From Nitrospirota bacterium (GTDB lineage Bacteria; NPL-UPA2; JAADIA01): a stretch of DNA of 19,235 bases. The notes under the pieces were generated by a model. The model was not told the DNA's origin, did no database searches, and saw nothing but the letters and a program-made list of their open reading frames with translations. Positions within the stretch are counted from its first letter, which is position 1. Each line of letters opens with the position of its first letter. The stretch covers positions 1 through 19,235 of the forward strand of contig JAADIA010000094.1 of assembly GCA_013151555.1 (NCBI GenBank), in the 5' to 3' direction. The position numbers and the translations under genes were made by a program. Shown piece by piece: positions 2,798 to 15,614 of the stretch.

Positions 2798-2905
2798 CAA
2801 ACTTTGGGCCTTGTTTCTCTATCAATTCATCCACACATTGCCTGATTCTAACTTGAGTTTCCTCAATAGAGCCGACGACTTTAATTACCTTTATTCTCTC
2901 CGGCT
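2754..2905 (-). other. Displaced C-terminal coding segment of tmk (frameshifted)
   Basis: A different frame from the tmk ORF encodes EPERIKVIKVVGSIEETQ and onward through RQCVDELIEKQ, a normal thymidylate kinase C-terminus. It then reads through repeat copy B (EIRNPKLETNSKL) to a TAA at 2754-2756. The switch point is a tandem CTTCC-CTTCC on the plus strand (2906-2915). Removing one 5-bp unit restores a continuous ...AKE-EPERIKV... reading frame. Confidence 0.75.
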
Positions 2906-3439
2906 CTTCCCTTCCTTGGCTGACTTCAAATATCCGTTTCTCACCCTCTGATGAAATTCAATCTTTTCTTGCTCTATCCGGTCTCCCTTGCCTTTTCCCC
3001 GGGCTCTCTTTATTCCCTGGGGAATCTCGATGTCAAGGAGAAGGGTTAAATCCGGTTTGATTTCCCGGGCGGCCAGACGATTGAGGTCGTTGACCAAAGT
3101 TCTATCCAAACCCCGGCCATAGCTCTGGTAGGCTACCGTGGCATCTGTGAAACGGTCGGATATAACTATCTTCCCTGCGCTTAAAGCGGGTCTGATTACC
3201 TCTTCTACATGTTGAGTCCGGACGGCTAAATAAAGGAAAAGTTCTGTCCAGGCGTTCATCTCTTTGCTCGTGGGGGAGAGGAGGATTCTCCTTATTTTTT
3301 GTCCTATTTTCGTTCCTCCCGGTTCCTGAGTGATGATATTCCCAAACCCTATTTTCCTCAGGTAACGGGAAAGTTTTCTTGCCTGAGTGGATTTACCACT
3401 GCCCTCCGGTCCCTCTAAAGTAATAAATAGGCCCCGCAT
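2891..3439 (-). CDS. tmk: Thymidylate kinase (C-terminus displaced by a frameshift)
   Basis: Tmk phosphorylates dTMP to dTDP for DNA synthesis. The 182-residue frame shows the P-loop GPEGSGKST (10-18), QEPGG (38-42), the DRF motif (95-97) followed by AYQSYGRG, and a LID region around RGKGKGDRIEQ. It stops about 25-30 residues short of the family length of roughly 205-215. The missing end is encoded in another frame (2754-2905) after a 5-bp tandem duplication. This could be a real mutation, a sequencing or assembly error, or slippage during expression; the core active site is intact. The ATG at 3439 lies 2 nt from a mini-palindrome array that replaces any normal leader; the only SD-like bases (GGAG) come from that repeat. 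Confidence 0.88.
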   Translation of the reverse strand: MRGLFITLEGPEGSGKSTQARKLSRYLRKIGFGNIITQEPGGTKIGQKIRRILLSPTSKEMNAWTELFLYLAVRTQHVEEVIRPALSAGKIVISDRFTDATVAYQSYGRGLDRTLVNDLNRLAAREIKPDLTLLLDIEIPQGIKRARGKGKGDRIEQEKIEFHQRVRNGYLKSAKEGKSRRE

Positions 3440-3441
3440 GC

Positions 3442-3624
3442 TTAGCTCGCTCCGCTCACGGTTTAGTCCGCCTCCGGCGGACGGTTATAGTCAGCTACAC
3501 TGACGGGAAATGATAGTTCGCTTCGCTTACGGGGAAGACTTTCCGCCCGAAGGGCTAATTCCGTTCGCTGCAGGCGAACTTCTCCCGTCCGCCTAAGGCG
3601 GACTATTCCGTCACGAAGTGACTG
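3442..3624. repeat. Array of eight mini-palindromes (TAG-core-CGG), four forward and four reversed
   Basis: Four units read TAG-core-CGG, with cores at 3446-3458, 3467-3481, 3491-3503 and 3517-3529. Four further units read CCG-core-CTA (CTT or CTG in two), with cores at 3546-3554, 3564-3578, 3588-3602 and 3611-3621. The cores differ: TCCGCCTCCGGCGGA, TCAGCTACACTGA, CCCGAAGGG, TTCGCTGCAGGCGAA, TCCGCCTAAGGCGGA and TCACGAAGTGA are self-complementary. The other two, CTCGCTCCGCTCA and TTCGCTTCGCTTA, resemble each other but are not palindromes. The constant flanks and head-to-head layout show an ordered structure. It fills most of the gap between the Yip1-family gene and tmk. Confidence 0.8.
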
Positions 3625-3629
3625 TTTTC

Positions 3630-3680
3630 TGTGGATAAGTTGTGTAAATCCTCTGAAATTTGCTTTTCTCCTGTGGATAA
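3630..3680 (-). promoter_or_regulatory. Pair of perfect DnaA boxes
   Basis: TGTGGATAA occurs at 3630-3638 and 3672-3680, i.e. two exact TTATCCACA boxes on the minus strand, 42 bp apart (about four helical turns). A weaker match (TGTGTAAAT) lies between them. The pair is about 190-240 bp upstream of tmk and ends next to the Yip1-gene stop codon. It could be a DnaA-responsive site or an origin remnant; two boxes without dnaA or a clear AT-rich unwinding region do not make an origin. Confidence 0.5.
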
Positions 3681-12522: not shown

Positions 12523-12567
12523 TAATGAGCACATCATCCGCCTGAGGCGGATGATCAGTGCGAATTA
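12523..12567 (-). repeat. 45-bp palindromic element, copy 1, directly upstream of the hisG SD
   Basis: ATCATCCGCCT and AGGCGGATGAT are perfect inverted arms around one base, flanked by TAATGAGCAC and AGTGCGAATTA. The reverse complement matches the element at 15571-15614, with one indel and one substitution seen by eye. In the hisG direction it ends in TGCTCATTA and the SD GGAG follows at once. Confidence 0.85.
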
Positions 12568-12573
12568 CCCTGA

Positions 12574-12693
12574 GAAATTCGAAGAATTTCCAGGACTTTG
12601 GTCCCTGAAATTGCTTTTAGCAATTTCTAGGGGTCCCGCTGAGTATGCTAAAAATTATTGGAAAGAATTTTCGCATATCTTACGAAGCGGGAC
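12574..12693 (-). promoter_or_regulatory. Tandem hairpins in the hisG leader
   Basis: Four consecutive structures are visible. GAAATTC-GAA-GAATTTC (12574-12590). CAGGAC/GTCCCTG (12591-12607, one bulge). GAAATTGCT-TTT-AGCAATTTC (12607-12627, perfect). A long arm closed by GTCCCGCT (12633-12640) and AGCGGGAC (12686-12693), with inner pairings ATGC/GCAT and AAAATT/AATTTT. All lie downstream of the predicted hisG start site, so the RNA leader would be a chain of hairpins. I recognise no known riboswitch or T-box; a cluster of palindromic inserts is equally possible. Confidence 0.55.
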
Positions 12694-12745
12694 AAGCTCA
12701 ACCAGCTAACTTGCTTCACATTCCGTAAGTTGCAATTTCCTTCTA

Positions 12746-15570: not shown

Positions 15571-15614
15571 TAATTCGCACTTATCATCCGCCTAGGCGGA
15601 TGATGTGCTCATTA
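15571..15614 (+). repeat. 44-bp palindromic element, copy 2, directly upstream of the Trm112-gene SD
   Basis: ATCATCCGCCT is followed directly by its reverse complement AGGCGGATGAT, a perfect 22-bp palindrome, flanked by TAATTCGCACTT and GTGCTCATTA. It is almost identical to copy 1 (12523-12567) and has the same orientation relative to its downstream gene. The SD AAAGGA follows at once. Confidence 0.85.

Follow-up and report, generated by a model that had tools for sequence, protein, structure and literature searches.

A composite array of tagged mini-hairpins next to tmk in a Nitrospirota genome: probably one copy of a lineage-specific dispersed repeat

Introduction

Eight short palindromes stand in a row at the start codon of tmk in a 19,235-nt stretch of DNA from a Nitrospirota bacterium (contig JAADIA010000094.1, the whole of which is here called the window). 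They share their ends and differ in their cores, which raises the question of what kind of element this is and how it came to be there. Most knowledge of REP-type repeats comes from cultured bacteria, and a family usually has one stem type. The source is a 1.81-Mb metagenome-assembled genome of 99 contigs that is 94% complete, in which the window is contig C78; eight other genomes, all from outside its own family, represent the phylum in the comparisons.

The array is probably a copy of a composite, non-autonomous repeat of the REP/BIME/REPIN kind that is specific to its lineage. A composite element with several kinds of hairpin in a fixed order, found in eight states of gain and loss, can show how REP-type repeats grow and change, and its copies form a natural set for asking what a mobilising enzyme reads: the tag, the stem or the fold.

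Structure of the array

Table 1. Features of the tmk array and its surroundings (positions in the window)
Feature	Position	Strand	Description
tmk, thymidylate kinase	2891..3439	-	start codon 2 nt from array
Whole array element	3442..3626	-	drawn on the presumed strand of co-transcription with tmk, running from unit 8 to unit 1 at the tmk start
Unit 1, forward, class h1	3443..3461	+	TAG-CTCGCTCCGCTCA-CGG, bulged hairpin, abuts tmk
Unit 2, forward, class B	3464..3484	+	TAG-TCCGCC TCC GGCGGA-CGG
Unit 3, forward, class C	3488..3506	+	TAG-TCAGCTACACTGA-CGG
Unit 4, forward, h1-like	3514..3532	+	TAG-TTCGCTTCGCTTA-CGG, bulged hairpin
Central palindrome, orientation flip point	3533..3544	none	GGAAGACTTTCC
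Unit 5, reversed, class D	3543..3557	-	CCGCCCGAAGGGCTA
Unit 6, reversed, class B	3561..3581	-	CCGTTCGCTGCAGGCGAAC-TT, flank CTT not CTA
Unit 7, reversed, class B	3585..3605	-	CCGTCCGCCTAAGGCGGACTA
Unit 8, reversed, class E	3608..3624	-	CCGTCACGAAGTGACTG, flank CTG not CTA
DnaA box	3630..3638	-	TTATCCACA
DnaA box	3672..3680	-	TTATCCACA
Second repeat family, site	12524..12567		
Second repeat family, site	15571..15613		

The array is a two-level palindrome: tagged mini-hairpins are oppositely oriented in the left and right halves, and the halves are also able to pair with each other (Table 1). All eight units reported in the initial annotation, four forward and four reversed, are present between 3443 and 3624 with a single flip at the centre, and its placement of the array 2 nt from the tmk start codon and beside two perfect DnaA boxes was correct. 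The fixed flanks that it described, TAG and CGG or in reverse CCG and CTA, hold for most units, with units 6 and 8 as the deviations. Likewise, the units are palindromic in general, but units 1 and 4 form only about four pairs, interrupted by an internal mismatch. Adjacent units are separated by 1–8 nt. The DnaA boxes, 42 nt apart, lie between the array and the upstream gene.

Five classes of hairpin can be distinguished: h1 (TTCGCTTCGCTCA, bulged), B (TCCGCC/GGCGGA, TTCGCC/GGCGAA or TCCGAC/GTCGGA), C (TCAGC/GCTGA), D (CCC/GGG or CTC/GAG) and E (TCAC/GTGA or TCGC/GCGA).

The initial annotation would have been refuted had such clusters been no commoner than in shuffled intergenic DNA; they far exceed the shuffles. 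With a strict unit defined as TAG, a perfect stem of at least three pairs and CGG, four of the eight tmk units qualify, whereas Markov-shuffled windows hold at most one per 183 nt. In the loci read from the genome itself, strict units are confined to the eight arrays described below, save one stray match. The array also has five 5-bp hairpins; 5000 sequences simulated from its own dinucleotides average 0.61 and never exceed 4. Folding, which had been proposed as a check, gives a z-score against shuffles of −6.7 as RNA, and of −5.4 and −5.3 for the two strands as single-stranded DNA. In the predicted folds the two halves are paired with each other, and the minimum free energy is −88.5 kcal/mol for one long hairpin vs −60.8 kcal/mol for local hairpins only. 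The only Rfam match in the window is 5S rRNA.

Copies in the genome and turnover of units

The array occurs at eight places in the genome, the tmk copy and seven more found by blastn. A covariance model (R1), made for the right half from these same copies, with a duplicated unit omitted to shorten some training rows, recovers all eight and no convincing ninth. At an E-value of 0.001 this model has no match in 289 other genomes, which include the eight of the phylum. A laxer model search of the phylum genomes finds no array, the weak matches being a second repeat family or single cores. The initial annotation had looked to the tmk upstream region of relatives for gain or loss of units. The relatives compared are distant, and the array is absent from those tmk upstream regions that can be read, and from the genome of G002 by model search; turnover of units is instead seen among the copies within the genome.

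Searches farther afield gave candidates that were rejected. Two pattern scans of viral contigs returned chance matches only, in unrelated sequence. A public genome collection, the search of which may omit this genome or very near ones, has 75 stretches with the exact unit TAGTCCGCCnnnGGCGGACGG, none of which is the array. They are other elements that share the core, many of them in Desulfobacteria, Dehalococcoidia and other groups, and they score at most 25 bits in the model, driven by that core. Metagenome-assembled genomes of Desulfobacteria/Deltaproteobacteria (ALJrbin.32, BM002, bin435) carry a high-copy dispersed repeat, attccccgTAGTCCGCC-nnn-GGCGGACGGggttagcgagcgaactacaataaaatgg, with variable parts of its own (L034, L038, L039, L041, L048, L050, L058, L066, L070, L078 and other loci). 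In the Dehalococcoidia genome 277c_29 another repeat, tcattgcgaggagcgTAGTCCGCCGCAGGCGGACGGcaatctcggg, is built around the same core (L037, L047, L068, L105).

The order h1-B-C-centre-D-B-E is common to the copies, with departures from it. Copy L002 is without C and L006 without the left B; the left end of L003 is broken. L004 has an additional E-type unit at the centre; L005 has a second E, as well as several tens of inserted nucleotides. Most of the left half of L007 is gone and an odd CTCCGA hairpin is present, and in L008 both outer units are doubled and the inner C/D part is inverted. What is dispersed is the array as a whole, in eight copies that keep the order of hairpin classes. Because this order is kept at unrelated loci, the array appears to have spread as a block, and the differences between copies suggest that single hairpins were gained or lost afterwards. 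Repeated insertion at one target, one of the origins first proposed, is not favoured for the same reason. The initial view that this is not a decayed simple tandem repeat is borne out: the flanks are fixed while the palindromic cores change, and units are gained, lost and inverted among the copies.

Genomic position and evidence for insertion

All eight copies are located at gene junctions, mostly co-directional with transcription. Besides the copy 2 nt before tmk, arrays precede truB and dnaJ by 4 nt each and leuD by 64 nt; one follows a PilZ gene by 2 nt, one separates mnmE from rsmG, and the last two flank a gene for a 23S-rRNA-intervening-sequence protein (PF05635). The two flanking arrays (L005 1500–2196, contig C62) have the same orientation, in the manner of a composite cassette. 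Intergenic DNA makes up 3538 of about 18,800 nt in the window, and sites within 4 nt of a start codon are about 2% of that. Three of the eight copies at such sites is therefore more than random placement would give, by a rough estimate from one contig.

The case for insertion is strongest at nrnA and truB. In copy L002, nrnA reads into the array, and its TGA stop lies inside unit E, so that the stop codon is supplied by the array. G004 is a relative from the same taxonomic order; at the site that the array occupies here, its nrnA and truB overlap (TATATGATGGATGG). The comparison points to an insertion, as judged from the sequence of one relative whose TruB is 70% identical. No target-site duplication is definable by comparison with relatives at this distance, none of which is a close one with a high-identity empty site.

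The unit-1 end also carries signals that resemble translation starts. At tmk and dnaJ it has GGAG 10–12 nt ahead of the start codon, and there is an in-frame GTG in unit h1 before rsmG and before the PF05635 gene, with GGAGG upstream in L008. The rsmG and PF05635 frames are open into the array (L008 1526–1600; L007 1446–1500), and the GTG could be their start codon. The arrays directly before the starts of tmk, truB and dnaJ raise the question of how these genes are translated.

Stem pairing and proposed mobility

Across all copies, the outer stem pairs of units other than h1 are kept in 232 of 235 cases, with changes on both sides of the stem. In the alignment of the right half, 99.4% of cells are paired and four pairs have changed on both sides; the covariation score was reached by none of 500 shuffles, a figure that is not a probability since the copies are related. 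Pairing between B units across the halves is less well kept (75/84). Conservation of the long hairpin only was considered and rejected, as local pairing is better kept although the long fold is the more stable. Paired changes in the stems could also come from mutation within palindromes, with selection not required. It should be pointed out that h1 units in the other copies nearly always keep the internal mismatch, contrary to what simple correction to a perfect palindrome would be expected to give.

Given this anatomy, movement by an enzyme that acts on single strands can be inferred. The array would spread as a folded single strand, perhaps on the lagging-strand template, and a candidate enzyme would read the AT-rich TAG end together with the hairpin, as TnpA-REP does with REPs. 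Template switching between near-identical palindromes, with selection for folding, might let the cores change yet stay paired. After insertion, the transcribed hairpins would join the intercistronic mRNA. There is no transposase gene beside any array copy within the stretches of about 3 kb that were read.

A second repeat family

The initial annotation saw the TCCGCC...GGCGGA core recur at 12.5 and 15.6 kb. The core is indeed common to these sites and the array, but the palindromes there belong to a different repeat family, AATGAGCAC-core-GTGCGAATTA. With 23 sites in this genome (L153–L181) it is commoner than the array, and six more sites occur in G001, G003 and G005, three further genomes from the phylum; a reversed control pattern has zero occurrences everywhere searched. 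Its cores are unrelated between copies (e.g. CACTTAG, ATCCGCC, CAATTTACG, ACTTATG), and nearly all are paired over about 10 positions. A design of fixed flanks and exchangeable palindromic cores is thus widespread in this lineage. Other modules of several hairpins (CCCTGAAATTGCTTTTAGCAATTTCTAGGGGT and similar) adjoin this family, as at 12560–12710 of the window and at L119.

Alternative explanations

The strongest alternative, possible but on balance unlikely, is that the array is a selected intercistronic RNA element: in the operon's sense it would fold into a cluster of hairpins or one long hairpin that stops just short of the following start codon, and would control mRNA processing, stability or translation. 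The covarying stems, the positions 2–4 nt before three genes, and the GGAG and GTG signals are all in keeping with this. In addition, the unit-1 end is toward the downstream gene in seven of the eight copies, provided that the flanking sequence at L005 is a tRNA 5′ side, a reading that ARAGORN leaves unconfirmed. However, seven of eight is weak with so few sites (two-sided p about 0.07), and the L003 copy is reversed. The genes downstream form no evident regulon, the composition of the array is different at each site, and it is absent at tmk in relatives.

It is more doubtful that a protein of the genome's own, related to REP-associated tyrosine transposases, moves the array specifically. Two Y1_Tnp genes of this kind are present (contigs C1 and C42), one of them above the curated cut-off for REP-associated tyrosine transposases, and the unit design of a tag beside a hairpin is REP-like. 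The C1 gene (L013 1430–2170), however, has inverted repeats of its own, of the GTAGCCTGTCCCC type: it lies between AAAGGGGACAGGCTAC and GTAGCCTGTCCCCTTT with no array unit nearby, a pattern similar to that of transposases with flanking TIRs (PMC3733652). The contig breaks off within the C42 gene, so that the gene's downstream side lies beyond it, and no array hairpins are beside the visible part. In none of the 45 array units is TAG preceded by G.

Equally doubtful is a process in which palindromic cores are swapped as modules between repeat families of the phylum while the flanks stay fixed, an active exchange rather than point mutation with selection. Were it to operate, the array would be its most elaborate product, inserting between stop and start codons and bringing its own stop codon and translation start.

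An array of protein-binding sites, with a nucleoid, gyrase-like or replication protein that reads the TAG and CGG ends with help from the DnaA boxes, is improbable. Fixed flanks with free cores would suit such a protein, as would the two perfect boxes at 3630 and 3672, but no boxes are seen beside the other seven copies, spacing between units varies, and pairing of the cores is conserved, not the flanks alone. Finally, assembly from integron-like attC sites or by a retroelement, as first suggested, is largely refuted: conserved ends around variable, imperfect palindromes are similar to attC in outline, but this 94% complete genome has no integron integrase (TIGR02249) over the cut-off and no reverse transcriptase, and the closely spaced units have no cassette genes between them and a symmetric reversed half.

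Relation to known repeat systems

Bacterial MITEs such as ERIC, NEMIS and Nezha are 100–300 bp in length, intergenic, palindromic and variable in length, and the array is like them in all these respects. It differs in that it consists of serial hairpins with no target duplication defined. MITE terminal inverted repeats are 15–30 bp; the array ends share only about AATAG...CTATT, but its halves are longer, imperfect inverted repeats. ERIC, NEMIS and Nezha are listed in PMC3733652.

REPs are tagged units with alternative complementary stem residues that form head-to-head dimers and clusters and lie between unidirectional genes (PMC3733652). The GTAG-tagged REPs, among them the SMAG, Pseudomonas and E. 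coli REPs, and their BIME clusters likewise have a fixed tag beside a short hairpin stem, and in some GTAG families the opposite side of the stem has a fixed motif of 3 nt (PMC3733652), as in the array. They also share with it the alternative complementary stem residues, the dimers and clusters of opposite orientation and an intergenic location, mostly between co-directional or convergent genes (PMC3733652). At 15–22 nt, the array units are slightly short of the 20–40 bp REP palindrome, and compensatory stem variants are present. The differences are in the tag, which is ATAG (33 of 45 units) or TTAG (12 of 45) and never GTAG, in the presence of at least five unrelated stem classes in a fixed order, and in copy number, which is low (eight arrays, each with several units). 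In addition, no transposase gene is found flanked by array units, the C42 gene being visible only as far as its contig end. It should be noted that TnpA-REP enzymes of different groups weigh the tag and the hairpin differently (PMC8266576).

CGTC-tagged REPs (dRS3, Rickettsia RPE-6 and RPE-4) are short palindromes without a known transposase (PMC3733652), and reversed array units often have CCGTC. In the array, however, the GTC is within the stem and pairs with GAC, with no unpaired tag, and CCG is outside or at the foot of the stem. The stems do not begin with two A/T pairs, and h1 and D units are without CGTC.

REPINs are inverted REP doublets that form one hairpin and replicate as a unit, with compensatory changes (PMC3116915). 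Two inverted halves that form one long hairpin are found in the array as well, and these also appear to move as a unit; each half is, however, several different hairpins and not one REP. The highly conserved, near-identical terminal 16-mers of REPINs are lacking, the outer units h1 and E being only partly complementary. Judged by its sequence, then, the array would seem to work like a REP/BIME/REPIN element, but it belongs to neither the GTAG- nor the CGTC-tagged superfamily.
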